Assembly: GCA_037833965.1 (NCBI GenBank)
Contig: AP031351.1
Coordinates: 11,916,501 to 11,980,500 of the forward strand
DNA length: 64,000 bases
Source of the DNA: Marchantia polymorpha subsp. ruderalis
Taxonomy: Eukaryota > Streptophyta > Marchantiopsida > Marchantiales > Marchantiaceae
Direction of reading: 5' to 3'
Positions within the stretch are counted from its first letter, which is position 1; each line of letters begins with the position of its first letter. Under the pieces are notes generated by a model. The model was given only the letters and a program-made list of their open reading frames with translations, did no database searches and was not told where the DNA came from. The position numbers were made by a program, and so were the translations under genes. This document shows, one piece after another, positions 1,301 through 62,512 of this stretch.

Positions 1301-4300
1301 GTTTCTGAGGATGTGCAAAACTCTTTCGCTGAATGTAGTCTGGTGTTGATTTGTCTTTGAAATATTAAAAATTAATCGCTTGTGAGGCAGTGGAAATGCT
1401 CCATATTGTTAGAAATATTCTTTCTTGCGGGATTACCCACAACTCTGATTTCTCCAAGTCGATATGAGAAAATCTGAGAACCACACATGCCTACATTCAA
1501 TTTGGGCCAGCTCGTTGAGGAAAAGCCTTGCCAGAAAATATGTCATATTTTTCCGTGGTCAATAAGAATGATGAATATTCTGATAATTGAGGAGTGTATT
1601 AGGAAAACTCAAGATCAGTGCGTAATCCAACAAAGTTCTCTTCCTCACGAAGGATGAGATTGATATATTTGCAAGAAAGATGATAATATGTGATTGTTAA
1701 GATATTTTTGTTCGTATCCTTCCAATTCATATAAGATTCATAACCATTCGCTAATAAAATAAGCAGCAAATCATTTAGAGTAGCGATCAATTTTCACGAA
1801 AGAATGTATCACAGATATTCAAGGAGTAATGAGAATGCACAGCGAAAATGACATTATCCTAAACTGCATGAGGTTGCCTTCCAAACTAATTACCATTATG
1901 AATTGTATTTAGAATTCAAAATCTGGAAAGATCATTTTTTAATTAAAATGTTTCAAAAAATGTGATGTTTTTATGACGTACATGCATTTAATATCACTTG
2001 CCACATAAATATTGTGTAGAGTTGAAAGTATCCAAGAATAATATTTTTCAAAAAACGTGAATTTCCAATTCACTCATTAATATGTCGCTGCAAATAACAA
2101 TAAGAAAAATATACTTATTATTGAAACAAAATATACGTATTAATATATTATTTTATTTGAAATTAATAAAAAGTAAAAGTATATATATATAGAGAGAGAG
2201 AGAGAGATAAAATAAAACTGCATATTGAAACAGAAATTATAATAAAAATAAAAACTATAAATCTATCTAAGATACCTTTGAACACATATAAATTGTTCAT
2301 TTTTTGTTCAATAATTACTCGGTTGCTTCTTGAGAGAATTAATGTTACCAACAAAGGAAATGTTTTAAACAAACCTAGAGAAATTATCAGATTAATCCTA
2401 AAGGTTTACTACTAGCATGACTTTGTGTAAGTATTCTCTTAAAGTATTAAATTTTGGATCACAAGAACACTTACAATCACCAGATGCAAAATAAAGTAGT
2501 AATCAGTTATGTCATCATTCGATCTTAAAATCATCAATGTGGAAACTTCATTTTCTCTCATAAATGGATTAAAAATAAAACAAATAAAAAAAAATCCCAA
2601 ACATAATTTTAAAAGTTTCATTGTTAAAAACAGACCCAAAAATGATGATATAGTATACAAATAAATCTTTCAAATTTTCCGTCATAAAAACATCAGTTGA
2701 AATTTATTATATATACATCCATTTTCACTTTCATTTATATGCAGTTTCTAAAAATTGAATTAGAAGTGACAAAGAGATGAAATAAATTTAATAATTCAAT
2801 CTAAATACAAATTTCAAAAACTTTAAAAGCTACTTTTTATGCAAGAAGTGAAGCTCTTCTTTCCGACTTACAACAACGGATGAGTTAACAAAAAGCTATG
2901 TTGGAAAATAATGAAAAAAAAATTATCTGAAAAAAATTAAAATTAAAACTAGTAATTACAATACTTATTTAAAAGTTTAATTTAAAGTTTAATTTAAATT
3001 ATTCGTGCAACAAAATTGATACGAGCATGATTTCAGATAAATATTCATTTTCAAAAAAAGAATTGAAATCTATCATCATGATGTGATTTAAAGTCAAACA
3101 CATATTGTGAAAATCAACTTTAATGCAGTACAGTATACATAAAAGACTTTGAGATTGATAGCATTAATAAGAAATGATATGAATGAGCTCAAATGTTAAA
3201 GTAAACTTCCCAGTCTTTTTCCTACAGATCTACTCATCTAACAATAACCCACATTTAAGAATCTAAATGAGCTAGTCTAATATAGTAAATTCAAATAAAA
3301 TAACTTATAAACATTGATGCAAGCTTGTAGAAATCTAAGAATATTAATTTACGAAACAAAAATATGTTGTACATATCAAAACTAAACTTGAACCTGTTCA
3401 CTTATTTATATTATTCAGGTGTATGAATTGAACATTGGCAATGGAAAAATAATAAATAAATAAAAGATCCAAAATTCAAACAAAAATCAAACTATAGAAA
3501 GAAATCCATGAAACAAATATGGGATAATATATCATCTTCTTTGAAATCTTTCTCAATAGATTAAAAGAAAATATGAATTACAATGAAGTGTGAATATTCT
3601 GTTTGATGTATATGACATGAATTGAATACTATATAAAAGGCAGTAAAGGCAAACTATATTCAATAACTAAATTTGACTTCTCACTGTAAAATTTCATAAT
3701 TATAAAAATATTTTTTTTTTAAATTATTCAAAATAACCATTTTGCGTGATTATAAATATTCATATAACGTGATTATTACATTGTTACAAATTAAAGATTT
3801 CATATGAAAAAAGTAAAATTTATATAAGATATCAATTTTTATATTTCTCTATTTATTATATTATAAAATGTAAGAAAATGTCGTAAATAGTATTTAAGTT
3901 TATGAAATGAAAAATTTAATATACATGCATGGTACAATTGAAAAGTAAAAAGAAAATTTTTCTTATTTTTTTGTATGTGGATACCAAAAGTAAATAAAGT
4001 ATATGTACATTTGTAACCTTATCATTTACAATAAAAAAAGTCAAACATGATAATGTCAATCTTTAAATAGATTTTTGATCATATTATAAAATTTTAAATA
4101 GTGATTATTTAAGTCACATTTTAAAATAAAATATTTTTATTCCATATAATTAAAATGGAATTTTTTATACTTATCTCAAATCATTCATATTTTATAAAAA
4201 ATAAATATTTTGAAGGTGAATTTTATATGTTCGTTTTGTAGTAAATTTTCATTAAGAATAAAAGTAAAATAAAAATCGACCTAAATTTTTTTCTGTAAAT

Positions 4301-4908
4301 CTAATTTACAAAATTCATACTCAATAATATTGAAAATTTGGAAAAAATATTATAAGTGATTTATCCATATTTTCTTAACCTGACTGCTTTACTACTTCAG
4401 CTATATATAATTATCTCAGAGCAAACAATTTTTTTAATCATATATGATCTTCGTAATTACTTGATTTTTTAATATTATATAAATAACTGTAATATATATA
4501 TATATTACATTGATTTATTTTTTTAATAGATTGCTAGTTTTTAAGAGAAAACATATCAAGATCAAAATTTAAAATTGCTTTAACCACTAATATTTCAATA
4601 TGTAAGCTTTTTTATGTGATTATTTATAATTTACCAAAAAAAACAAAGTATACATTTTTCTTAAAAAATTTATCTTTATATAATGACGAGAGCAATTTCA
4701 AAATATTTAAATCATCAACAATTGCTTAAATATGCTTCATAGTTGTTTGTGATGATAACCTGAGAGATCTATTCATAGATGAAGTATTTATGTATGAAAC
4801 TTTCATTAAACTCTTGGCTCCTGGTTCTAATTTAAACTAATTTTCATATCTAACAATTCAATAAGCTATAAAATAAAACATCGATTCCCGCTCTGAAAAA
4901 GAATCTGC

Positions 4909-4935
4909 ATATATATATATATATATATATATATA
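4909..4935. repeat. (AT)n microsatellite
   Basis: About 13 uninterrupted AT units in AT-rich intergenic DNA. Confidence 0.9.
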
Positions 4936-7900
4936 ATCTGATTGTCGATGAAAAAATTTGTTAAACACATTTTAGTTATTAAAAATGTTCCACTAAAGTG
5001 TTAATGATTTTTTAAATATTTATACTTGTCACAAAAAATTAAATAACCCACAAAATATTTATTTCCATTGATTCCAACAGTGTTTTTAAAATTTAATAAA
5101 TTGTATATAAGAGTATAGTTTGACTATGTAGAAAATGTGCATAATTAAAATGCATGCATGAAATAATCCAATTTTTGGCATAATCACACAAATAATAACA
5201 TAAATTCAATAAATAATATTTTAATTTGAATCCCGTTTTTTAAAGATTAAATATTATGATTAAAAAAAACTTGAAAACAAAGTGATTTTTTAGAAAAATG
5301 AAAATAAAATGAAATTCATGATCAAAGCCCACAAATATATAATCTTGTGTGTTGAAGCTTTTAAAATTTTTTTACTTTTCGTGAGCGTATATAATTTGTT
5401 ACAATACTCTTTCGTGAAAAACAACTAGATGATCTCAAGAATCTATGAAATAAATTATGTGTTCATCAAGAATCACAAATATCAGCTTCTTATTCTGTGA
5501 AATAGATGTGACATCTTGTATATTACTTTATAAATAAATTTATAAAGATTGTATTTTCACTACAATCAAAATAATTGATTATTTCATTAGTGTCAAAACA
5601 ATAATGATGAAGAACTATAATATCATGCGATATACTTACGTATGTCTTGTGAATCTGTGTGCAAAAAATTATGGAAACGAAGAAATCACTAATCAGATAT
5701 TGCAATTTATAAGTTAAAATATAATAAGTACATAAATATATTGAGTATTTAAAGAAAATACCTATCCATAAATATTCAAGTAGCTTTTGATATTCTTATC
5801 AAATTAACGTTGTTAAATGTACAGACTCCACTTGATCATATGCTCCACAACTTTGTATAACAACATATAATATCACATGTTTCTTGATAGGAATAATACA
5901 CTAATTGAATTATGCATGAAACTGGGTTTTAGATATTTATTATTTCTAAATTTCAAATTTTAAACTTAAATCATTTTAGATAAGTTAAACAATTAATCAA
6001 TACATTCGGTCATGTTTTATAGAAAAATCGCATTTAATTAAGCCAAAAAAAGTTAAAAATTTAATTCAAGTCATACACGGCAATGTGTTTCTTGTAAATT
6101 TCCAAAAATCAAATAAAAAAATATATTCTCAGGTTGTTATGCTAAAAGAAGATATATTATATCTAAATTTAGACTAACAAAGTAGATAACTTATCTAAAC
6201 GAAAATGGTGAGTTATTCTCAAGTGAGTTGCATTAGATAATCTAACGTGTAAATAAATGGATGCACGCTACATAGAAAATTCTGTACATTGAAATAAAAA
6301 TGTGATACTACATGTTACAAAATATGATGTATTTTTCTAAAAGACTGATTGTAAAGTAGGAACATATTACCTGTATACTATACGTATATTTAAACATCGT
6401 CAAAACAACTATAATTTCACTCTCAACAACTTTAATTGGATGGTTATAATAACATTCTATAATATATCACGTATGTTTGTGTAATAAAAAATTCAAATGA
6501 GTAACCAGGTACTCATGCAAAGACATACACATGATTTTTTCATGTGAGATGTGCCCAACATTAACATCTTAGTCTTCAACTAGGTCTATGAAACAGAAGT
6601 TCAATGTGATGTATACACATTTTTGTGTTATAGCAAACTCACATATTAGTGTAATAATGGGTAGCTATCATGTGTAATTCAAAGGGGGCAATGTAGACTT
6701 GGTTGCATCTATCTTTATATCAAATCACGTGTGATTTAGAATTTCAATTTGATTAAGATGGCCAAAACTATTACTCTTGCACTTAGAATAGATAGATAAT
6801 AATTTATTTACAATATTTACTTAACCTCTTTTCCTAACCTTCATCATTGAGTAGTCCCATTTTTTCAAAACGTATATTATCGTGCCATTGATATAAAACA
6901 GAAACTATAAAATGCATAATTTTGCAGTGTAATATTATTGTAATTTCATTTATATCCACTTTGTATTAACAAATCAACTTTTGAAGGAAATTTTAAACTA
7001 AGTCAAATTTTTGTAAGCCTTTGCAAACGACACATGAGTGTGATATTCAGTCTTCGGGTATCTAGCCAGTTGTTAGGCATTCAAGTCTTCGTCTCGACGT
7101 GGAAAGACAGCGGACTTTCAATACATGTATCGGAGCTAAACTTAGCATCGATAAGTCCAAGTTTAAATTCATGATAAAATTTGCAAGCATACATTTGGTT
7201 AAGATATATTAATGTCAGATGTTACAAATTGGTTATACAGTGGATAAGTTACAGATAATAAATCTCTACTGATATTACTAGTAAAAGTCTGGTCCTCTTG
7301 TCTAACTGACAAGTAAAACAGATACTGTATGTGTAACAACCGCAATAGATAGTGATCCGTATTTATCTGTTGGCGGTGATAAAACAAGGGAGCAGTTAAT
7401 TTAAGACCTCCTCTATGGCTAGTCCTATAAAGGGAAAAAAATGATAACTTTGAGTTTGTGGAGAACGTTGAGGTATCATACTATAATGGCCCATAGGAGG
7501 CGAGGATGCACATTGGATCCACATCTCAGATGATTAAAAAAGCCATGGGAATTCCATCCTGATTTTGATGGTTTGAATGTTATATGCTGGTATATTTATT
7601 ACTTTTATATTGCCAAAGATGCCTAGAGAATTGAAAATTAGAAAAGTTGCTCAACATTTTCAGCTACCACTATAATACGTGGTTTGAAATCACTATTGTT
7701 GAACACGTGTTTCAATAACCTACTCGTGCCGGATATGGATATAAATGAAATAAAAGCATAAATTAGTATTAATTTGAGGGGCTTTTAGGTAGTTTTTATT
7801 TCTGGGATATATTTCCATTCTATTCTATTTTATTGAAAATAAGTAGAGAATACAGATTTTTTATTCGGGAAAAAATTGAATCATCCACTTTAAATTCCCT

Positions 7901-8378
7901 CAACTATTGAAGTGTACAATTCACAATGGATATATAATTATGATATACAAATATGTAATCATAAAATAAATAAAAACCAAAATAAAATTTGATTTTCTTA
8001 AACATAATAAAGATAAAAATCAGATCCACAGAATCTGAATATTTCTTATATAAAAAATTTCATTTCTATATTTCTTAATTAAGAGTACATCATTTAGATG
8101 TAATTATTAGATGATTTTTATTAAATAGATAAGAATATTATTAAAGAATTTAGTAAAGAATGAACAGAAAAATTTATACATTTTACGAATTTTATGAAAT
8201 TAAATAATTTATCACTATATATATGAAAATATTTTGCATAAAAAACTCTTATATTTTTTAAAAATTATTTCCTTTAACTCAATTGAAGAACTTAGTATTA
8301 TCTTATTTTATAAATAAGATTTGAAATTTATTATCCATAACATAATTTCTATATGAATATCTCTAAAGAAATCCATCA

Positions 8379-8442
8379 TAAATAAATAAATAAATAAATA
8401 AATATAAATATAAATAAATAAATAAATATATATATATATATA
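8379..8442. repeat. (AAAT)n / (AT)n compound microsatellite
   Basis: Runs of AAAT units interrupted by ATATAAAT variants pass directly into an AT dinucleotide run. Confidence 0.9.
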
Positions 8443-9663
8443 CTTTCAACTTTTTCATAAAATCATAAGGTGCCGATGATAAAATAGTACTTAAAATACT
8501 TCATTCAACAGTAAACTGATATATACGACAATAAGATTTTTTTAATTCGATAGTATAGGTACATCTATAATTTTCTTTCAAGGATCAAAAGTCATTTCTA
8601 TTTTATTTGTCAAATATTTTTTTTTAAATTTAAATAGTAGATCTTATAAATGTTTAAAGTTATTTCAATCAATTTCATATAAACGGTTTTTTCAATTGAT
8701 ATAACCTTTAACTTGTACGTCATCAATTTTTGAATTCGTGTGAAGTCTGAGCTATGAATATTCATTTAAAATATTTAATGAGTAAAATACTTGAAATTAG
8801 AGTTTTTGAGTCCAGTACATATCTCATCTTTCAATTCTTTCATGATTTTTTATTTTTATTTTTTACAAAAATCAAAAAAATCAGTATATTGCATTTTATT
8901 TTTCCTATCGATGAGAAAAATTGCTTGTTGAAGTTTAAAGATTTTTTATAACACAACTTTGTAATTCTGGTGTTGATATGAATATTTTTAATTAAAAATA
9001 TAATATGTAAATCTCAATCAGAAATGCATGATTGAGATGATTTAGATTTAGATAAATCTGATATTTAATCAATTACAATCTTTCTAAACAAAATAGGTAG
9101 GTAAATATTCATTGAAACTTTTGGAACAAATTTAACAAATTTTGGCTCATTCAATTGAATATTTGATACTAATATGATTGATGATACTAGTTTGATAACT
9201 GTCATTGTAATCATTTATAGTTGAAATGATATAGATAACCCGATGTGATTCATTTTAGATTTTTTTAAGATCTGAAATAAATATTTCAAGTTTTTATAGG
9301 ATCCTATGTTTAATGTATTTTTTCTTACGGGTATCTTTTAATGCCACTATATAACGATTTTATTATCCTTATTTTTTCAAGCCAAATGAACATTGGCGCA
9401 AGAAGAATCCTAAGTTTAAAAAGATATATTTGTCACTTTGTATAGATTTATCAAAATTTTAGCTTCTTGATTTTGATTCAATTTCTGAGTATATAACTAA
9501 ATTAGTCATCTGGTGATAAGTACGTAAGGTAAATAGCGTAGACAAAGGTTCTTGTAAGAGATTTGTAAAGTGGAAATTTGAAATTTCAGATTTGTATTCT
9601 GTGCATAACTTCTGATGGGATAAAAACGTACTCATGTAGTAACACATAGTCTTGTGAGTCGAT

Positions 9664-20500: not shown

Positions 20501-22230
20501 CGATCGAAGTAGGTCAAAATCATATCATGAGGAAAGCATTTCAAGTTTCCCACGAGTAAAGTCACTCCAACTCCAGTATAGTAACTTTATCGACATGTAC
20601 CACCACCACATTTGCCTAGAAACGAAACTTCAGCAAACTTGCAAGAGCATGGCAGAAAGAAATTTGCAACCAACCTTTTGGTAACACCGTAAGAAGGTTC
20701 GTTTTTTTGAACAGAGTAGAACTTTTATGGCTCCACATTAAAGAGCTTCGAGTCAAAGCTTTGACGAGATAGTGAAGTTGTCTCGTGCCGACCGTGAGCT
20801 ATGGAGTCCGACTCATGCCGCAAGTTTCGCATGCGTAGTCAAAACCTCGGCCCTGTTGTTGATGTAACCACCGTTTCTTACACTAGGGACAAAGCTCTGA
20901 TGCAAGAGATTAGGGTGCATTATTCTGCCTTTGCACCGAATGCAGAACCCTCTCCCGATGGCACCTTCGACTCCAAATCAATTTCACTGATCTCGTGTTC
21001 TGCTACGGAAGACTTTTTCTGACCTATCAGTAACAGCTTCCCTTCCTGTCGAAAACCAAGATATTCAATAAAGGCAGAAGCTTTAGCAAAAACTTTTAAC
21101 GTTTTCGTTCACAAACATTCTACGCCCAATTGCAACTGTTTCAAAGCATAGCACCGACGGAGGAGAGGGAGGGAGGCGGAAGACGACACGAAGCACACAA
21201 CCTAACATTCCAAATGTATACAATAGAAGCAGTTGGATCCACTTTATGTCCAATCCAAATCTGAGACTAGCGTGAGCGAATTCAAGGACTCAGTATAGCG
21301 ATGTGAATGGAGTGTTGCAACAAGAAGCTAGTGAGTGCATTGTAGGTTCATGGACTTCACATCTCTCTATATACTTGAACAATCAACCACATACGAGACT
21401 CAATGATGGACAAGTGCACCTCCTTAGCAGAGTAGAAAGATCTATGCATAAATCAAAGCATCTGTTGACAAGTTTATCCTAAATTACAAAAGAATATCAA
21501 GAGTGCTCCGGGGAAAGATCGACTTATGCAAACTTGAGACTCAATGAAGGACAAGTGCACCTCCTTAGCAGAGTAGAAAGATCTATGCATAAATCAAAGC
21601 ATCTGTTGACAAGTTTATCCTAAATTACAAAAGAATATCAAGAGTGCTCCGGGGAAAGATGGACTTATGCAAACTTGAGACTGCAACTCACTGTCTGTTC
21701 GTTCAACTGGTAAACAAAACATGTCTAGGGCATAGGCACTTAACGATTCCAGTTGTTGATAGAGCTTGTACGAAGTAACACATCTGACTGCTTGTATTTG
21801 TTCAAACTAGGTCTGAAGCAGACCTCTAGATAAGCTGAGACGCACTACAGGTTTTACCATACCTGTGCCAAATTCCTCGCATTTCAAATCAGTGTTGAAA
21901 ACAAGTTCAGATTTTGAAAAGGAAAAATGCAGATTGACTAGTTTTACTGTGATTATCGGAAGTCTACAAAAGTTTTCAGGTACTGGCAGTGTGCTTAGAT
22001 GAGCAACTCGTTACTATAAACACTCAGAATCAGCAATTTACACACACTCGGAATCTCTTGTCAAACACATAAGAAAAAGTGCAACTGCGTCATCACGAAG
22101 TAGGACTTTGTTCATCCAAGCTCTCTCCTGGGAAAGTTCGTTTTACCACGTTGTTGCAGATAGGGTCCCTCTTCATTTAGTTCGTGTTCATTCAAAGATG
22201 ATAAGTTCCAATCACAGGACGAGAAATGAT
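17600..22230. other. Intergenic region with a second GC-rich stretch
   Basis: 17.6-19.0 kb is of ordinary composition with no supported gene. 19.0-20.4 kb is GC-rich again, with many short overlapping frames on both strands. 20.4-22.2 kb lies downstream of the WD40 gene and may include its 3' UTR. A 73-codon frame at 20801-21022 resembles nothing I know. Confidence 0.5.
21395..21676. repeat. 141-bp tandem duplication
   Basis: Two head-to-tail copies (21395-21535 and 21536-21676) differ at about two positions as read, and a third copy starts for only a few bases at 21677. The near identity implies a recent duplication. It lies about 0.6 kb past the stop codon of the minus-strand WD40 gene, possibly in its 3' UTR or flank. 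Confidence 0.9.
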
Positions 22231-47380: not shown

Positions 47381-47408
47381 TAGGTTACGATTCGGAGTTG
47401 GATCGACC

Positions 47409-47780
47409 GTTTGTAAGTGTTCAGTTTTCTGCATCGATAGTTTGTAAGTGTTCAGTTTTCTGTATCGACAGTTTGTAAGTGTTCAATTTTCTGCATCGAC
47501 AGTTTGTAAGTGTTCAGTTTTCTGCATCGACAGTTTGTAAGTGTTCAATTTTCTGCATCGACAGTTTGTAAGTGTTCAATTTTTTGTATCGACAGTTTGT
47601 AAGTGTTCAGTTTTCTGTATGGACAGTTTGTAAGTGTTCAGTTTTCTGTATGGACAGTTTGTAAGTGTTCAGTTTTCTGTATGGACAGTTTGTAAGTGTT
47701 CAATTTTTTGTATCGACAGTTTGTAAGTGTTCAGTTTTCTGCATCGACAGTTTGTAAGTGTTCAGCTTTCTCTATCGGCA
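47409..47780 (+). repeat. 31-bp minisatellite, 12 copies, in the copia leader
   Basis: The GTTTGTAAGTG start of each unit recurs at 47409, 47440, 47471 and every 31 bases to 47750, giving 12 copies followed by a partial unit at 47781. Units differ only at a few positions (CAG/CAA, CAT/TAT, CGA/GGA). It sits in the untranslated leader between PBS and gag. Confidence 0.95.
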
Positions 47781-47888
47781 GTTTTAGTAGGAGCAGAGGA
47801 GAAATTTCTCGGGTCGTGAAAAAACTTGAGAAGAATTGATCTGCAGTCCAGGTCTTGAGAGTAGAAGTCAAGGTGTTTTGGTTCTCAA

Positions 47889-48953: not shown

Positions 48954-51900
48954 ATGGCATCGAAACAACTTGGAGGAACAGGGTACAACATTCTTCCTCT
49001 TGATGGCCGAGGTGATTACCTGCTTTGAGAAAAGCAGGTGAAAGGCAAGCTGAGATCTATGGGTCTCGCTAATGTGCTTCGAGACAAACCATTGCACATT
49101 ACCGACATTGATTGGAGGGATTCACAAGAGCAAGCAGTCTACATTGTGATGCATTATCTAGATCATTTAGTTATGAAGCAAGTTGAGTAGTATCTTGAGG
49201 TTACACAGCTTTTTGATGCCCTACAGAGACGGTTTCATCAAAAAGAAATCTCACATGTGATGAACACCCACATGAGGCTCTTAAACTTCAGGATGAGGCC
49301 GAGATCAAGAATTCAAGATCACATTCACGCCTACGGAGATTTGTTGGTAGATCTTCAAAGTATGGAAGAGGAGCTTTCTGACATTAAGAAAGCTATGCAT
49401 CTACTCCACTCATTGCCTTCCTCTTACCAGACAATATCAAAGATTCTCCTTCATCGTGATAACAAGGCTGTAACTTACAACGAGGCTGTAAGTGCTCTCC
49501 TGGCGGACGAGGTGAAACAAGAGATGTTGTCATTCTCTCGCCCACTCCCGTCAAGTACTGCAATTACTTTGATCCGGGATCAGTCGCAACCATCGGGTCA
49601 TGACAATTTGCAGCGTACAGGCTTCAAGCGGCAGAGATCCAGATCCCCTTAACGCAGGAAAGTTCAATTTCGAGTTCCATCCCCAAACAAGAGGAACTTG
49701 AAGAACTTGGTGTGTTGGAGATGTGGCAAGCATGGCCACATCAAGAAGTACTGTCGGATGATAGTCAGAGATGCGAATCTCCATCAAGTGGCGAATGTTG
49801 CGGAACATCTTCACTCCGAAGAGGACGACGTCTTTGCCGACGGTCTATGATGCCAGAGGTATGCCCTTTGTAGTTCACCATCACTTGTTGGTGATGTATG
49901 GATTTTGGATAGTGCTTGTTCTTATCACATTTGTTACATTAGGGAGTTCCTCTGTACTTTCTCAGGATCAAACGGTTTCGTTCTTATTGGGAATGACCAA
50001 CCTTGTAAGATTGAGGGTGTGAAATTTGTAAAAATCCGCATGTTTGATAATGTCAACTGAACACTGACACACGTTAGGTTTATACCTAATATGAGAAAGA
50101 ACTTGATCTCTCTTGGAGTGTTAGACTCACACGGCTTGGAGTGAAGCTCTAGGCAAGGCGTGTTAGATGTCAAATCCAGTGATAAGAAGGTTATACTTAG
50201 AGGATACAAGCACAATAATCTGTACTTACTAGAGGACACCACAATTTGTGGAGAAGTTAACTTCACCAGATCTCGCGTAGAGATGTCTCATTTATGGCAC
50301 TCTCGATTATGCCATATGAGTGATAGATACTTGTTTCTTCTTGACGAGAGAAAAGTGTTATCGGGTTTGGGTTAAGTTGACTTCGCCTTTTGTGAACATT
50401 GCATCATGGGAAAACACCATAGGCGAGCTTTTACGGTTGGAATTCATAATTCCACGGAGATACTGGAGTATGTACATAGTGACGTGTGGGGCCCATCTCC
50501 TACTACCTTACTCTAAGGAAAGCTCTACTATGTATCTTTTATACATGATTACTCCAGATATGTGTGGGTATATTTTCTTACACACAAGTCTGAGGTGTTT
50601 TCCACCTTCAAAACTTGGCGCGTACAAGTTGAAACTCAGATTGGCAGGAGGATAAAATATTTACTATCGGATAATGACGGCAAATATACTTTTGAGGAGT
50701 TTGAAAGGTATTGTATAGAGGAGGGTATTACTCGTCACTTCACAACAGTTTACACTCTCCAACAAAATGCTGTTTCTGAAAGATTCAACCGAACAGTGTA
50801 GGAGAAGATGCGGAGTATGCTAAGCAAATTTGGTTTACCAGGAGAATTCTGGGCCGAAGCCGTCAACACCGCAGTTTATTTGGTAAACCTCTCTCCTTTT
50901 AGTGTAATCAATTTCTCCACACCGTTGAAACTCAGGCATAAACGGATGGCGAATTACAATCGCTTGATGGTTTTTGTTTGTACTGCTTATCCTCTTACAC
51001 CAAAGGAGCACATGAGTAAGTTAGATCCTGCATCCAAGAAATGTCGTTTTCTTGGATATGCTAGTGGAGTGAAAGGTTACAGGCTATGGGATCCATTAGC
51101 TCGTAAGGTGATTGTCAGTAGAGATGTTTCTTTCAATGAGCTTGGCTTATTGAAAGAGGAGGAGAATTTTAAGACTCCTCGTACTTACAAGAGGAAATCT
51201 ATTGTGGGGTAGTTTGATCATTGTATCACTAATGATCTGTCACAAGAAGGAGCACCGGTGCATCAAGAACTGGAGAAACATGAGCGAGTTAGCATTGATG
51301 AGCCTATTGCAATAGTTTCAGACGATAGAGATCACATCTACTAGGAGATCGCATCGTGCTAGTAGGGCTCCTGCAAGGTTTGGCGTATGGGCAAATTCTT
51401 CCATTCTTGAAGATAATGACTTTGATGTTGAAGATGAGGATGGTATGGCGTTATTTTTGGAAGAAGTTGAACCTTCTTCATACAAGAAAGCTCAAGCTTT
51501 GGTCAACAAGCTTGAGTGGAATGCTGCTATGGAGCGGGAGATGAAATCCTTGATTGACAATAAGACTTGGGAGCTGGTTGAACCTCCTTCGGATAAAGCG
51601 CTGATTGATTCTAAGTGGGTGTACAAGCTGAAGGACAATCCATCAAGAAACGAGGCAAGAATCATCAAAGCTAGGTTGGTGGCTAGAGGTTTCACACAAG
51701 AGAAGGGCGTGGACTACAACGAAGTTTTTTCACCTGTAGCTAAGTATGCTACAATTCGTCTGGTATGTGCACTAGTTGCGATATTTGATCTTGTTATGGA
51801 TCAGATGGATGTGGTTACAGCCTTTCTTTATGGAAATTTAGAGGAGGAGATATACATGAAACAAACTGTTGGTTTTGAGGTAAAAGTCAAAGAGAGTTTG

Positions 51901-53054
51901 GTTTGTAGATTGCTGAAATCATTGTATGGACTGAAGCAAGCTCCTAGGCAATGGAACATGCGTTTTGATGAGTTCATGAAGGCACAAGGTTTTTTACGGA
52001 GCGTGTATGATCCTTGTGTCTACATGAAGAAGGTAAATGATGAGACGTTCAATCTCATTATTTTAGTGCTTTACGTTGACGACATGCTCATACTGGCGAA
52101 AAATCAATCCGATGTTGATGAATGCAAGAGTAAGTTGAAGTCTGCATTTAAGATGAAGTATATGGGAGAATCGAAGAAAATATTAGGCATGGAGATCCAT
52201 AGAGATCATGAACAGAAGAGATTATGGTTGAGGCAAGGCAAGTATGTCCGTTGTATACTTGACAGGTTCAACATGATTGATTCCAAAGGAGTTTGGACTC
52301 CTTTGGCACCACATTTCAAACTCTCTGCAGCTCAATGTCCTACCGATGCTGTGGAAAAATGAAAAATGTCATGTGTTCCCTATGAACAAGCCGTAGGCAG
52401 CCTCATGTACTTGATGGTGTGCACTAGGCCGGACATTGCTTTTGCAATGGGTAAGGTAAGCAGATATATGTCAAATCAACGGAAAGTTCACTCGGAAGCA
52501 GTGAAATGGATTATGAGATATTTGAAAAGTACCTTGGATTATGATTCATTGTTTGATGGTATATTGTACAATGCCAAATCCTTGTTTGATTACGTTGATG
52601 GTGACTACGGACAGGATCTCGATAAAAGGAGATCTACAACTAGGTACTTGCTTACACTTGGCGGTGGAAGCATTAGTTGGAGATCTACCTTGCAGAAATG
52701 TGTAGCTCAATCAACAACGGAAGCTGAATATGTAGCAGCAGCAGAAGCAGCAAAGGAAGTTATTTGGTTAGATAGGCTTATCATGGAAATGGGATTGAAG
52801 CAGGGCGTTGTTATCTTCATTGTGATAGCCAGAGCGCTTTACATTTGGCTGCAAACCAGATCATGGATAGCAGAGTGAAGCAAATCGACATCAGGTATCA
52901 TTTTATCAGACAAGCAGTGTCTGATAAAACTATTGAGCTAGTCAAGATTGACGGTAAACTCAGTCCAGCTGATGCTTTGACCAGAGTTATTCCATTGGAG
53001 AGTTTCAGACGACACTGTGCTACCATGCAAGTTGTGCATGGGGAGCACATGTAG
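48954..53054 (+). pseudogene. copia gag-pol polyprotein, disrupted
   Basis: Starts at ATG 48954. Domains in order: Gag with an IQDHIHAYGDLLVDLQ segment (about 49317); zinc knuckle CWRCGKHGHIKKYC (49713-49754); protease with DSA (near 49908); GAG-pre-integrase ending CEHCIMGKH (about 50391); integrase with SDVWGP, SDNDGKY and QQNAVSERFN as its D, D and E regions (50480-50785); reverse transcriptase with YGLKQAPRQW and YVDDM (51445-52362); RNase H with STTEAEY (near 52710). All parts up to about 51212 share one phase but are cut by several stops. The RT lies one phase over, and the RNase H tail (52845-53054) shifts again. The longest intact piece is the 305-codon RT frame. No working polyprotein is possible. 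Confidence 0.95.
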
Positions 53055-53483: not shown

Positions 53484-54169
53484 TTTTATTGAAAATTTTT
53501 GGTCAATGATTCAAATACATATTATAAGTCATAGTAAAACAATCAAACATATTGACATGTTAATCCATAATAAAGACAAGTCAAACTTGTTAAACACACG
53601 TGAAACGTAATTGCCTTATTCAATCATTTTTTCTTTTTCCAGTTTGGTAATACCTCAAGTATTGGATGAAAGTCAAATCAACCTAACTAGAGTTAATATG
53701 AGTATTATATTTCTTCTCATTATAATTAGAGCCAGGTTTCAACTACCATATATATAAAGAGTGTCCATACACATAGCGCCTCGAATAATTCTAGATTTTT
53801 TTGATTTAGACCTTGTTGTTTACTAGAACGTAGCCAAAGACTTACATATCATCATATCATGTCATCACATCACATATTTTTTTGTCATAAATTTTTTTGC
53901 TCGTGGATATATTGATTGTTGTTTTTAATCTTAAACTCTAGATTCCAATGAAGAATGTGCATATTATCTTCTTGAATTTAACCAATTCTTTCATCTTAAA
54001 TACACACTTAAGCTGGTTCTTGCATTGTCGACATCCAAATATTTTTTTTTTGCCAAAATGAGCATAACGTTCATATAAAATACTAAAATAATGAAATTGA
54101 ATATTTTTTTGTTTAATTTTTTATGTATCATAAAAACTCAATGAAACCCTTTGTGCTTTCATGAACTTA

Positions 54170-56960
54170 TCAAACTTTGCATTCTATTGCATATGAGCTT
54201 GCTTCAATCCGTATAATGATTTCAACCATCTATAAACCAAATTTCCTTGATCTTTTCTTTGAAATCCAACGAATTGTTTCATATGGATTCACTTCTCTAA
54301 AAATCTATACAAACATGTTATAATTACATACATAAAATTCATAAGCAGATTAAATATTACAAAAAGTGTACATACCAATCAAATTGTAACATATTTGCTA
54401 CTAGCAAGATCATTTTTTTATAGTCCGCAACTTTTTTTTATGTAAAAACTCTAGACACCAACATGACTTTGAAAATTCTACTCCCTTATCTACTAAATTG
54501 AAATTTAACTTATACTATCATTTGCAATGAATCAAAATTTGATTCCTTAGAAATTCTACCAATTCCAATGTATTGTTATTCATCAACAATTGCATCTCAT
54601 GATTTATAGCAGCATTTGATTCAAGCTTATTGACATAGTTTTTATTTACTTCAGAAAATTTTTACTTTTCTTATAAGTCCAATGCATTTCCATCATCATA
54701 AAAAATATTAATATAACTAACTTCAAACATGTATGAATCATATGATTCATGAACCATATTCATGATTCATGTTGATTCAATTCTAATCAATCTTAATCGT
54801 CTAGTGCAAATAGTTGAAGTTCGCAAAAGATCAACTGCTTCTCCAATATGTGCTCTTCAAGAATTTGCTTCATTTGTATTAGGGTTTTTTTTATGTCACA
54901 TCATTTATTACATAATGATTATTCTCTCCTGAGCAATTATTGTGAATAAGATTTATCTTTATCGATATTTGAGTTTGAAAATCTTTCTTTCTTTTAATAA
55001 TACAAGCTTTACAAAAACAAAACTACTAAAAATAACTACATAGAATACTAGATCTCATAGTTCATAAACCTCCACATCACTAGCATATACAAAAAAATAA
55101 CACTTGCGGATGCAACTACTAGCTTGATACTACTTTTTTTTTACCTTTAAAAGTTTAGTCCGTACAATCAAATATTCTCAAATAAATATAATCAATCGAA
55201 TGCTTATGCCGCAATTCAAATGATATCAAGATATTGAGTTCATTGAAAAAATCCTTTAACAAATGTACTGCAATATTTATAACTCTATCTCAAAATTCAC
55301 ATAATAATATCAAATATATAATATATCAAATTGACTCAACATACTACACAGTTTTTCTAACACCGTTGAATAAATTTCTAATAAATAATTTTCTTCTTGT
55401 GAAGTATATACGTAATTGAATGACGAGCAATAATAAACTATTTGCAATAACTTCAAAATTACTCAAAAGTATACTTTTTGCTTTTAACTTTATGTACATT
55501 TTCAACTTTTGTCAAGTCTTAGTCTTCACTTAACTTGAATTCTCCAACTTTTAAAACTTGTAAATAACTCAAACTTGTATATGAAAAATTAAACTTTCAC
55601 AAACCTTGGATAATCATCAATAAAATATACATAAGATATCTTATTAGAGAGAGAAGCCTTTGAAGAGTATAATCACATGTCATTATGTACAAATTCAAGT
55701 AATTATTTATCATTATGAGTTTCAATTCCAAAATTTTGTCTATGATGATTGTTCATAACACAATGTTCACAAAATTTTAAGTTAACTTTATTTATGCAAG
55801 TTAACAAATCCTATCATCAAAAAGTGACATGTATTTATTGCTAATGTTTCATAGGCTAGAAAACCATACGTGCATGTGATATTTCAACTCGAGATTTAAT
55901 ACAATTGAGTTTGTCATAGATGATAATGTACTTTACCAATTATAGATTTTTGTACTTAGTATCAATTTACATAATCTTATTATGTATTTCTAAATCCATT
56001 TGTCTCTTTCAAGACGTCCATCCAAGGTTTTTAATTCTAACACTTTGGAAGAGATTAAAATTATTTCCATATCATTATAAATTTGACTTGAGTAAATTTA
56101 CGTTGGACTTCATCAAAAATTTGAATCTTAACAAACCTAATATCTTCAATATGATCACTCTTTAGAAGTATGATTTTGTTTGATACTAAAAAAATTACCA
56201 ACAAAATTCTCTAATGTAGCAAATGTAATAAGATTAAACACAATCTAAGCTTTGTACGCCAACAACATTTTTAAGTGAGTTGAAAACGACATATTTTTGT
56301 CATCATAGAGCATCTTTGAGCAACTCATACTCATAAGCATCAAACTCTTGAGCCAGGTTGACTGAAGTAGTATCACCACCTTTGATCTTCACATGACAAT
56401 ACTTCTTGACGTGACTAGTCTTGACAGATTTTCAACAATACATCATCTATATATTGATAAATTTGTACATAAACATGATTTTATACTAAGATCCAATAAG
56501 TTTATCATCCTTGTCATTTAACCAAACTTAAATCACATTGTTTGTCGTATTGGAAAAAAAATGAACTCAATTTCAACATCATCTTTTATACAAAGTCATT
56601 CATCAAAAAATCATTAATAACTTTATGATATAAGATTGTTTTCTAATATCTATGAAACAACATTTGTGATAAAGACTGATTTGAAGCAAGTAGCAAGCTC
56701 AAAATATGTAGAACTTTTTTCTCATCGTTATTCTACTCTCCAAGATTTTGAAGATCAATCACTAGCTCATGAAACTCATCAATATGATCTTGAATCTTTG
56801 TGACACAATCTTTTCACTTGAAATTCATTAATCTCAAGGAAGCATAAATGTGTTTGATAACTTCTTGCAATGAAAACTATGACTAGATTCATAGCATTTA
56901 GCTTTCAAAAATCTTTCCAAAAATAGATATTCATCACATCCATCTTACTTGACTATCTCA
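54170..56960 (-). pseudogene. Old, heavily decayed copia gag-pol remnant
   Basis: Read on the minus strand, colinear fragments of a copia polyprotein survive. Gag: IQDHIDEFHELVIDLQNLGE from about 56800 down, parallel to the intact neighbour's Gag. Zinc knuckle remnant: SHVKKYC near 56405. GAG-pre-integrase: CEHCVMN at 55751-55771, with integrase-like sequence near 55600-55700. RT start: VNKLESNAAINHEMQLLMNNNTLELV-like text near 54550-54650 (broken); RT core: LKSLYGLKQA near 54190-54230. Stops and small indels are everywhere and the composition has drifted to AT-rich. It is a different, older insertion than the element at 47-53 kb and lies in the opposite orientation. No LTRs were recognised. 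Confidence 0.8.
54733..54750. repeat. 18-bp perfect palindrome
   Basis: ATGAATCAT followed by its exact reverse complement. The same ATGAATC...GATTCAT motif forms a longer palindrome at 59163-59192. Confidence 0.85.
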
Positions 56961-57182
56961 TATTCTATTCCATCATATTTTGTGGTTGCAATCTAATCAT
57001 GAAAAATAAGTTGAGTCGTCTCTTGTGACGTTAAAAGTAAGTTGTATTTTTTTTCATTCATATATCACTCTTGACATTTCAACATCGCTTTTAAGAAAGT
57101 CTTGGAGGTTATGATAGGTGTAAAACAGACTTGTGACTTGAGTCTATTTAAGACTATGTCAAGATTCTTAAATAACTCTTAA

Positions 57183-57630
57183 AAGATTAAAGACTAAGGT
57201 TCTGAAAAAACTTCATAAATAGAAGAGACAATAGATTGCGGAAATCATAAGTTTTTCAATGGAAAGGATTCAAGATACTCAAAGATATGTATAAGTACAA
57301 GTGATTTTTTGGATGATATTTCAAATGATGACAAAGTAAAACTATAGGTTATCATAATTGATGTAGAAAAAAGAAGCAAGAAACATCTTAAAACTGCCAT
57401 AATTGAGCCACAAAGTCTCTAACAGCCTTGATCATAAATGTCAAAAACCCTAGATGTAGTCGCAAGGCCCAAACTAAAGCACATAAGCACAACTACGTTG
57501 AAAAAAAAAGCAAATCATAGGTTCATTTGTAAGGCAAAATGCAGAAGATTAAGAACAACAAAAATCTAAAATCATAATAACTTCTCAAAACAATTTACAT
57601 GGATCCTAGAGGTTTGCAAGATTAAAGACT
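57183..57630. repeat. 13-bp direct repeat bordering the left arm
   Basis: AAGATTAAAGACT occurs at 57183-57195 and again at 57618-57630, exactly at the two edges of the left arm of the large inverted repeat, like a target-site duplication. Confidence 0.8.
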
Positions 57631-58477
57631 TTGCTAGAGCAATGGCTATGATTTTTTCATCATATGCTGTTGCAGCCATTAGGGCCTCAAGTTGCAGCAA
57701 CTATTTTTCCATCCTTAGAACATTTTTTTTAAATACAAAAGTTCAAAAACTCCTCATATGTTGCAATTATGTCGCAAGTTGAACCGGCATTGGATATAAT
57801 GAAATTAGCAAGAAATTTGTACTATTATAAATATCATCGTATAATACAATAAATCTTTCAGGGACAATGTGCCAATCAATATTATGATATTTTCAAAATC
57901 TTCATCCATGACAACCCTTGTTCCTCTTTATTGCTTTGTTGGATACTTATCATTTGTCAAATTCATGTCTTCATAATTAGTTAGATTTTTGGAAATATAA
58001 ATTCTAATTATTTAGTAGTTTTGACTTTTGACATAGTCAAAGTCCTCACAAGGAGCAAACCTCTAGGATCCATGTAAATTGTTTTGAGAAGTTATTATGA
58101 TTTTAGATTTTTGTTGTTCTTAATCTTCTGCATTTTGCCTTACAAATGAACCTATGATTTGCTTTTTTTTTCAACGTAGTTGTGCTTATGTGCTTTAGTT
58201 TGGGCCTTGCGACTACATCTAGGGTTTTTGACATTTATGATCAAGGCTGTTAGAGACTTTGTGGCTCAATTATGGCAGTTTTAAGATGTTTCTTGCTTCT
58301 TTTTTCTACATCAATTATGATAACCTATAGTTTTACTTTGTCATCATTTGAAATATCATCCAAAAAATCACTTGTACTTATACATATCTTTGAGTATCTT
58401 GAATCCTTTCCATTGAAAAACTTATGATTTCCGCAATCTATTGTCTCTTCTATTTATGAAGTTTTTTCAGAACCTTA
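57195..58477. repeat. Large inverted repeat, 423-bp arms with no mismatch seen
   Basis: The left arm is 57195-57617 and the right arm 58055-58477. Block-by-block comparison found no mismatch and no length difference, including a 9-base A-run matched by a 9-base T-run. The spacer is 437 bp (57618-58054). No open frame of note occurs in the arms. Transcription from either side would give a long, fully paired hairpin RNA. It could be a foldback-type element, an inverted duplication of a short retroposon, or an assembly artefact. Confidence 0.92.
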
Positions 58478-59162
58478 AGATTATTGGGGAACGATACAAT
58501 TTGTTTTAAGTTAGAACAAATCATGTAGATCATTTTCAATCAGATTGTAATTTTTTGAGCTAAGCATATAAGTTAGTGCAATTAATTTGATGATTTTTAT
58601 TTTCATGTACTTAATATGTATGTTATACAAGTGCAATTCAAGGGTTTAGGGGTCAAGGATCTCACAAGATTAAAAAAACATTCCAATGTATACTCTAACT
58701 AAGTGTGTTGTTTTGATTGATTTCATTCTACTACTTTGAGATATCATATTTGTTAACATCATTTTTAAACATGAAAAAAGCAAAAACAAACAAGAAAAAT
58801 AATGATTTTCTTGCTTGAAAAAAACTCTATAATCATTTATATGATAGTTGTAGTCTTTGATTAGAGATTCATTAGCTTTCACGCAACAATTTTTTGCACA
58901 ATCTTTTGTTTCACAATCTTAAGCGAGTCCTTATCAAATTTTGTTTGCAAATAAAAATAGATATATCACTTCAAATACTACATTTTGTTGCTTATTTCTC
59001 CTTCCGCTTCTTATAGCGTGCACTATGTACTTCAATATTGTTTCAATTGTGCCCTCCACTTGTTGTTGATCCACAAAGCCAATAGAAGATTTGAGTGCAA
59101 ATGCAACCAACCAAACTTCTATCAACTTACTATTTTATAATATTTTAGCATTTACTATCAGT

Positions 59163-59192
59163 TTTTATATGAATCGTACGATTCATATAAAA
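59163..59192. repeat. 30-bp perfect palindrome
   Basis: Every base from 59163 to 59192 pairs with its mirror position, centred between 59177 and 59178, with no spacer. Confidence 0.95.
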
Positions 59193-59395
59193 TTTTTTAT
59201 TGATGACTTCCAATTCATTCTTGCACTTCTTGTAATAAAGTTGCCACATAAGACACAAACATGAAGAATGTAATTTGGCCAAGCAATTGAAGTAAAATTT
59301 TTATGCAAAAATGCATTATATATTACAATAAAATTAGTACTTGATTCTGATTTTCTTTTCATGTAAGAATAATGTCATTTTCCCTATTACTTCCA

Positions 59396-59720
59396 TGTGT
59401 GCGGACTAGTGCAATTAGAGTCCTTATAGTTAGTATTAAGATTTAGTGCTTGTAGTTTCCTATTTTTCAGTTTGTTATGATCAAAGTATGCGACACTCTT
59501 TAGGGATGTATTCCCCGGCAGGGATGTGTTCCACTATAAGGGTGTGACTACTTTGTGGAGTTGTGTTTCTCCATGTCTGACGCATCCCTTGACCTCTCTC
59601 GGATTGGGTATTTAAACCCGATCCGTGGACCTCTGTTTATCAATAACTATCTATCAAATACTTCCTCAGAATCAGTGTGTACTCTCATCATTGCATTGCT
59701 CTATTTCTATAATTCATAAT
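59396..59720 (+). mobile_element. Possible solo LTR
   Basis: This stretch is more GC-balanced than its flanks. It contains a TATTTAAA TATA-like motif near 59612 followed by CTCTGTTTATCAATAACTA, an arrangement typical of a retrotransposon LTR promoter and leader. No second copy, PBS or clean target duplication was found, so this is weak. Confidence 0.25.
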
Positions 59721-60400
59721 TCCTCATTGTGGAAAATTTGGTCATCATTTTACTTTTGTATTGTACTCAATGTATGTCTATAAGAAAAATCACTTATGAT
59801 GATCTAGATACTCTGAATCCCTACTTCTAACGAATCTTCACACTTTGTCTTCATACACGTATGACATCATGCTCCATGCAAGTCATTCGTTGATTTTGAC
59901 ACTCTTTGAATTTCATGATTAAGTAATACATCCATTCTTGCCCCCATATTCATGTCCGCAACACTGCCTCGTTGTGTTGTAGTTAGCGTATGATGACATT
60001 GTGCTCAATCCTATGAAATGATAGTCATGACTAATATCTTTGGATGGATCTTTCATTTAGACTTCTCTCGAAGAGACATCAAACGATTGAACAATTTGGG
60101 GTTTCATCAAAGATGGATTAGACAACTGGTGGTGTGCTCGTCCATCATTTTCCAGCGCTACGGTAATTCTTTCATTTCAACCCACAACCAGTATGAACTA
60201 GAACTTGGTAAGGAATCTACTGCTTCACATCCGCTTAAGGTACTTGAAGTGGAACCTCTAGTATACTTTTCCTTCCCATGATTCTTACTACTTGATCTCC
60301 ATACTAGATTCTGCAGTGACCTTTTTGAACCCCTTGCCTTCCACAAAGGCTCCTTGAGCACATCATTTTCTTCAACCTCGTCCACTGTGTTTTTAACTTA

Positions 60401-60885
60401 TCTCTTAATTCTTGTAGTTGTAATAGGAATACGAGAATCCATAAATATCACAAATAAAATAACAATGCAGACAAAAAAATTGTCATTCTCGAAATACTGA
60501 TCTCTTAATTCTTGTAGTTGTGATAACATTTGTAATAGGAAATACTAGAATCCACAAACATCACAAATAGAATAACAATGCAGACAAAAAATCTGTGGTT
60601 TGTCATTCTCGAAATATTGAGTTTGAACCTCATCTCTTAACCTTGTAGCTGTGATTCCATTTGTAGCAGTAAAGACGAGAATCCATAGATACCTTGAATA
60701 AAGAAAAATACCCGACAAAAAAATGTGGTTTGCAGTATCGAATTTCTGTGTTTGAACCTCATCTCTTATTTCTTGTAGCTATTATATCAATTGTAACAGT
60801 AAATACAAGAATCTATAAACATCACAAATAGAGAAACAATGCCGACAAAAAAAATACATGCTTCGCATGTCTCGAACTTTGTTCA
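60401..60885. repeat. Four tandem copies of a 100-132-bp unit
   Basis: Units starting TCTCTTANNNCTTGTAG begin at 60401, 60501, 60633 and 60762. Each continues into a GAGAATCCATA/AACATCACAAATA and AACAATGC(A/C)GACAAAAAA segment. The later units carry an extra TTTGAACCTCA stretch, which explains the longer period. Confidence 0.85.
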
Positions 60886-60889
60886 CGAG

Positions 60890-62512
60890 ACAGACATGAG
60901 ATTTTTATTTTAAAAATCTACAAATTTTTTAATGTAAGTTGTGGCTCGAATTACTATTTATACAAAGTTAGAAAAAAATCTAGATCTAACCATATCTCCA
61001 ACTTTATTAAAATTTAACAAGAAATTATCTCTAGACTTGAGTTGATTCTAACTCAAACGCAGTCCAATCCTATCACAACTGGACAACAAGTTGTTGCTCT
61101 CTTGTGAAGCTGAAAGCCGCCAACGGCTACAACGAAAGTAGTGTTCAAACAACTAAAGTAGGACGTGCGGTACCACAAGGGTTATTGATATGAAACCGAA
61201 GAGAACAGATCAGACGCCGGTGGTACAACCGTGTACATCGGAAGCATCAGAGATCCGAACAGATATGGAATCCGACACGATTACCAGTTCAAAGACGTTT
61301 TACCTCTCGGTATCGACTCCCTGCTTAATTCAAAGGCTTTCTTTCGAGACTGAACGATATCCTTTTGCAGATACTATCCGGCTTGTTGGGGACGTTATCT
61401 GAAACTTCGAATTAAAGATATTATCGGATCCCGCTGACGACCGCCATGTTCCATGCAGATATAGTTCACTGCATGCAATTGATTAGCTCTTGAAAACTTG
61501 TTCTTGATATTTTGTTTAATGGTGGAATGCGGAACAAACCATGATGGGCCAGTGTGTGAGTCTATAAGCCCAAATATAAGTGTGATTGGCGCCATCAAAA
61601 CAACCCATGCCGTTCTTCCATTTCAGTCCGCCAAAAAATTTCATATCCAATAACCAAAAACTTTCCAATACTCTTTGGTGGTACCACGTCGCCACAACCA
61701 TACATTCATGCATTCATTTTCGAAATGACGAGCTCCTAGATGCGGAATTAGACAAGACGACCCATCACAAGTACATCCAACATCGTTGGACCTATTGACA
61801 TGATCGTGGCAATCTTTTCTTGGGTAAGCAAACTCTCGAAGGGGCGGGCAGTCGAATACTCCTGATATTACAGGGAGGTAAGACCTTTTCGTGAAAGCCA
61901 GACCCTTATTCACTGATACAAGCTGAGACTTCATGCTCCAAAAAACCATCTTGGCAGTAACCAGAACACGAAGGGCAGATACATCGAGACTCATAACGCA
62001 GAGTAGCAAGAGTCAGAAAAAATTTTGAACCCAGATCGTAGTGGTAACACTGCACAAATATAGTACCTATCTCTGCTTCAAGAGTTAACATCGCACTCTA
62101 TGGAATTATAAGGATGCTCATTTAAGTAATCTCCCATTAAATTAATTCCAGCTCGATAACCGATAAGTTGTGTTTAAATAACAACCACTCTGTCGACCTC
62201 AGCCATGATCCAGCTGCACCTGAAATAATTCTAACTAGATGAGATAAACGAAGCAGCAGATGATGCACCTCTTGGCGAAAATCGTGCATACAAATGCTGC
62301 TACAAACAGAGAAGCCAACTACAACCACTTCTTGATCCCTACCCATGGGGCCGAGTTGAGGAGTATCGGCTTGAGATAGGTCTTTCACCCATGTGAAAGT
62401 AAGACATAAGTGCCGTAGACACCGAAAGTCACTTGCAGCCGTCAATGACGTACTCATGGACGAACAAGTTTGAGCATTATATGACACAAAGTGTCACCTC
62501 TCTACTGCGAAC
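60890..62512. other. Region downstream of NUP35, no supported gene
   Basis: The right part (about 61600-62512) may be the 3' UTR of NUP35. Minus-strand frames at 61641-62009 and 62137-62487 lack any recognisable motif. Confidence 0.4.

Follow-up and report, generated by a model that had tools for sequence, protein, structure and literature searches.

The window, as we call the whole 64-kb stretch of DNA that was analysed, contains a perfect inverted repeat whose left arm we read, with a probability of roughly 80%, as a recent inverted copy of the right arm that was made in a single event, through either a template switch or patch-type break repair. The first-pass annotation had left three origins side by side for the identical arms, namely very recent formation, gene conversion, or an artefact; the first of these is best supported, now by a direct repeat at one arm and by relatives whose alignments cross the outer border of the other arm only, and the other two are disfavoured. 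These two independent signs, a direct repeat at the left arm only and homology that crosses the border of the right arm only, agree in pointing to the right arm as native and the left arm as the copy. The mechanism is ordinary in kind, its product is unusually long and clean, and the perfect hairpin is a by-product of the copying event.

The inverted repeat and the direct repeat at its left arm

The left arm (57195..57617, minus strand) and the right arm (58055..58477, plus strand) are 423 bp each and are separated by a 437-bp spacer (57618..58054, plus strand). A string test over all 423 bases found the left arm identical to the reverse complement of the right arm at 423/423 positions (100% complementarity), which bears out by computation the two identical, opposed arms and the spacer length that had been read by eye, and this identity ends sharply at both borders. 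The arms (GC 0.31) and the spacer (GC 0.30) have the same base composition. The runner-up among exact inverted matches in the window, at a seed length of 20 bases, is a 30-bp palindrome (self-complementary), and 17 stretches of 10 kb that were taken from the same genome at preset coordinates and compared with themselves by blastn contained no perfect inverted repeat of at least 100 bp; the 423-bp pair is therefore far beyond chance. A perfect 30-bp self-complementary palindrome lies at 59163-59192, in the right flank.

Similar but imperfect inverted pairs are not rare in this genome, as two of the sampled stretches, L034 and L040, indicate. L034, on the small 5.6-Mb contig C1, was the single stretch of the 17 with a pair at ≥95% identity and ≥100 bp, this being an 862-bp inverted repeat (7253-8110 and 8438-9291 of that stretch) with 96% identity and a 328-bp spacer; no direct repeat of at least 7 bp was found between the 60-nt flanks of either of its arms. 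Shorter and less perfect pairs were found in the repeat-rich stretches, above all in L040, which includes a pair without mismatch over 63 bp.

A direct repeat of 13 bp, perfect between its copies and absent from the first-pass annotation, brackets the left arm alone, and does so exactly. Both copies are on the plus strand, the left one at 57183..57195, ending on the base with which the left arm begins, and the right one at 57618..57630, within the spacer. The 12-bp core of the repeat occurs twice on the plus strand of the 64-kb window, both times at the left arm, and not at all on the minus strand, and the chance of a 12-bp match in the local DNA is 3.9e-7 per site. Among the 5900 registers of a 423-bp offset in 54050-59950, a match of 12 bp was reached only by the two adjacent registers of the direct repeat, the next best being 9; across the whole window, abutting repeats of 12-15 bp at this offset were found in 10/63470 registers, two of which are the left-arm repeat itself, the other eight lying outside 54050-59950. 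The two 30-nt flanks of the right arm have no common word longer than 4 bp, so that, with the direct repeat at the left arm, the left arm looks inserted and the right arm does not.

Microhomology at the junctions of the event is weak, with one base at the outer border. Near two borders of the event lies an imperfect inverted repeat of 23 nt (78% identity; 57152..57174 on the plus strand with 58016..58038 on the minus strand), no more than about 45 nt from the outer border of the left arm and 40 nt from the inner border of the right arm. Its score was matched by 2/300 random local zone pairs in a post hoc test, and it may represent a pre-existing hairpin that folded the template or stalled synthesis. 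An inverted word of 6 nt is common to 57630-57635, in the target just past the 12-bp core, and 58054-58059, at the inner edge of the donor; as a candidate for junction microhomology it was set aside, being within chance (about 0.055) and not fitted by simple re-annealing.

Relatives of the arms elsewhere in the genome

The genome searched has a total size of 241 Mb in nine contigs, the smallest 5.6 Mb and the largest 33.2 Mb long, and positions 56001-61000 were compared with 23 other loci in it, several of which overlap one another. A search for single-arm copies, which had been proposed as a check when the repeat was first noticed, did find relatives: used as a query against the whole genome, the arm matched at least three diverged places with 70-83% identity over 88-192 bases, and two more were found via the flank. 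No close copy of the arm was found elsewhere, and no second copy of the spacer or of the arm pair, in searches whose counts are lower bounds; the spacer retrieved only itself. With no close arm copy found elsewhere, the donor would be the neighbour 437 bp away, as the use of a local template predicts.

The right arm is matched at five distinct diverged places, one on contig C3, one on C5, and three on C4, and each of the five alignments extends beyond 58477, into the right flank, at approximately 65-74% identity outside the arm (matching columns outside the arm: 53/72 for C3, 54/76 for the best piece of C5, and 108/164, 115/178, and 21/32 for the C4 places). Matches to the left arm begin at 57196 or later among the compared loci; its outer border at 57195 was crossed by no alignment among the 23, and 57128-57194 had no partner among them. 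In C5 and in two of the C4 places, C4a and C4b, the left flank was aligned too (approximately 65-79% identical), with no second arm-like place between the flanks, the insertion point itself being unaligned; the C3 place and the third C4 place had no left-flank match on that side. On these alignments and the direct repeat, the right arm is best taken as the native donor and the left arm as its inverted copy. In the C5 relative (L005, 1501-1839), the part that matches 58437-58553 is duplicated in tandem, the two copies being adjacent.

The proposed copying event and competing origins

In the mechanism that we propose, DNA synthesis would have left its template at about 57194, or a staggered break would have opened there; the segment from 58477 to 58055 would then have been copied in reverse orientation, from its own locus, the sister, or the homologue; and the original DNA would have been rejoined 12-13 bases upstream of where it had been left, with those bases being duplicated as a result. 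In four-point template-switch notation, the order would be 4-1-3-2. A four-point model with synthesis to 57194, reverse copying from 58477 to 58055, and a return 12 bases upstream rebuilds 57101-58600 letter for letter from an ancestor of 1065 bases, and because this ancestor was derived from the window itself, the exact rebuild is a check of completeness and not independent evidence. The copying was presumably DNA-templated; a replicative template switch and synthesis-dependent ‘patch’ repair of a staggered break give the same product. Two points count against the proposed event, namely the length of the copy, 423 nt being long for a short-range template switch, and the weak microhomology at the junctions. 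Zero differences in 423 positions give a 95% upper limit of 0.0071 on the divergence of the arms; with a rate of 7e-9 per site, an Arabidopsis value that may not fit the present species, this limit corresponds to about 0.5 million years, or as many generations. A large effect of gene conversion on this apparent age is disfavoured by the perfect direct repeat, which lies outside the arms.

A duplication at the left arm would also result if LINE-type machinery had reverse transcribed RNA of the right arm at a nicked target site, and here the size fits, as 12-13 bp is usual for LINE insertions, the target duplications of which measure about 5-20 bp. Two bases beyond the repeat, the complementary strand at the left copy also reads CTTTT/AAGAG, a motif that we take to resemble the L1 endonuclease consensus. 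However, this puts the nick site two bases off, the 3' end of the insert has no A tail whichever way it is read (the left end alone has a run of six A, ten bases inside), and a landing 437 bp from the donor in a 241-Mb genome would not be expected; we consider such an insertion very unlikely. An old inverted repeat with arms kept identical by gene conversion or by repeated template switching is comparably improbable. The surroundings are indeed old, and the conversion of quasi-palindromes to palindromes is known, as described in the consulted portions of PMC7954356 and PMC8794818. The direct repeat, however, is perfect as well, although all but one of its bases are outside the arms and would not have been co-converted with them, the identity stops sharply at both arm borders, and C5, C4a, and C4b lack a second arm-like place between their aligned flanks.

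Perfect long inverted repeats are also a classic artefact of assembly or of library preparation, in the form of fold-back chimeras. The present pair is internal to a contig of 31.6 Mb, and a fold-back read would not be expected to produce a 13-bp duplication at one arm together with unique flanks on both sides, which makes this origin still less probable than the preceding ones. Least credible among the origins considered is a MITE- or MULE-like transposon of the foldback or long-TIR type, of which the arms would be the ends. With its long arms on either side of a spacer, the locus has the shape of such an element, and the outer flanks have the 6-bp word AGATTA in common, which abuts the right arm and stands 5 bases off the left arm. 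No target duplication was found around the arm pair, however, the outer flanks within 30 nt sharing at most 6 bp that do not abut the left arm, and the 13-bp repeat brackets the left arm and not the pair. The right arm’s outer border, moreover, is no element end, given that homology crosses it in five relatives, and the genome searches, which give lower bounds, returned the pair and the spacer only at this locus. The young foldback element that had been suggested for this locus is thus unsupported on all three counts, that is, flanking duplication, copy number, and the nature of the right border.

The one-event inverted copy that we favour has counterparts in two known systems. Among the short-range template switches treated in PMC7954356, in so far as the consulted part of that paper covers them, there is a class with point 4 before point 1 whose mark is direct plus inverted repeats, and our locus is like it in being a one-step reverse-complement copy of a nearby segment with a direct repeat at the return point and perfect arms. 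It is unlike the great-ape set of that paper, as excerpted, in scale: copied lengths there have a median of 12 and a maximum of 128, and the template was required to be within 100 nt, whereas 423 nt were copied here and the template is approximately 0.4-0.9 kb away. The copy is longer than those of that short-range set, and the locus is useful mainly as a clear example. The second counterpart is patch-mediated or filler-DNA repair in plants, in which, according to the sections consulted, a short tandem duplication at a break is likewise combined with DNA copied from elsewhere: PMC8355091 links small duplications in tandem to the filling-in of staggered breaks, with reference to work in rice on patch-mediated repair, the study of Vaughn and Bennetzen 2014 is referenced both there and in PMC6097286, and filler DNA in plant double-strand break repair is treated in PMC5023962. 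In contrast to plant patch repair, the patch here comes from the immediate neighbourhood in inverted orientation, and it is known from its product alone. On the reading given here, the locus shows which of its arms came first, and how a single step, with no transposon end involved, can give rise to a long perfect inverted repeat. Literature searches made without the name of the organism brought no paper on this locus to our notice.

The host retrotransposon and the small-RNA reading

The DNA in which the repeat lies is, by its sequence, a decayed, CpG-poor Ty1/copia relic. A better preserved copia element occupies approximately 49.2-52.9 kb on the plus strand, with RVT_2 and Retrotran_gag_2 matches in Pfam, and the relic adjoins it on the minus strand at 53962-56867. 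With pieces of the preserved element as tblastn queries, three decayed parts of the relic were located on the minus strand: a copia-type gag at 56508..56867 (30.6% identity, E 4e-13), a match at 54974..55108 (E 3e-4) to the piece 50802-51209, which is regarded as integrase because of its position and sequence and carries no profile name, and a reverse transcriptase at 53962..54634 (two pieces, E 5.8e-30), the DNA of which aligns in inverse orientation with 51502-52189 at 68%. The inverted repeat starts about 330 bp past gag, on the 5' side of the relic, and from this order of parts the leader or LTR of the relic is the likely source of the arm. A like order is found in the C5 relative, where a match to the RNase H piece (52363-52875, so taken although it has no Pfam match) is followed by a match to the integrase piece, gag-region DNA, and then the arm-like piece.

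The decayed, AT-rich setting described in the first-pass annotation is confirmed by a GC content of 0.26-0.32 over 54-60 kb and an observed/expected CpG ratio of 0.45; over 54-60.4 kb, this CpG depletion is accompanied by a TpG ratio of 1.34, which is the pattern expected of long-methylated DNA. The CpG value of the arm sequence, equal in both arms, is 0.30. The copying event was probably later than most of the CpG decay.

In addition to its origin as a copy, and not as an alternative to it, the repeat might be transcribed as a hairpin that is then diced to yield silencing RNAs of 21-24 nt, which we regard as very unlikely. The predicted minimum-free-energy structure of a transcript pairs the two arms in a long near-perfect stem, should the locus be transcribed, and there are published precedents in Mu killer of maize, an inverted transposon duplication that silences (PMC3440606), and in plant miRNA genes that arose from inverted duplication (PMC3237417), in both cases as given in the consulted parts of these papers. 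No Rfam match at gathering score was found in the window, however, and exact matches between the arm and the five relatives reach no more than 19 nt in one relative and 11-14 nt in the remaining four, which renders trans targets doubtful; silencing in trans by the arm sequence at present thus appears unlikely. ARAGORN returned no tRNA.

With the young MIRNA and siRNA loci of those two papers, as far as the consulted text describes them, the present locus has in common a perfect inverted duplication as starting material; it is unlike them in that it probably derives from the leader or LTR of a dead retrotransposon and that no close target sequence was found. It would be a long shot for the repeat to be a proto-siRNA locus of zero age, that is, a perfect and mutation-free 423-bp stem from a probable dead retrotransposon leader that is already transcribed and diced. 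A one-step inverted duplication is the step that is assumed in models for the birth of new hairpin RNA genes, and the locus, combined with small-RNA data, could be used to ask whether a perfect hairpin newly formed in dead transposon DNA is expressed at all.

Several other features of the window were noted. A GH3 gene was found, which, like the copia elements, is consistent with a plant genome without being proof of one. The stretch 2001-6000 is very AT-rich (GC 0.21-0.23), and the GC content of the window reaches 0.60 in 14-16 kb. Units of about 31 bp form a tandem array at 47399-47784, and a tandem duplication at 21395-21682, with 98.6% identity over a 147-bp alignment, is likely recent.
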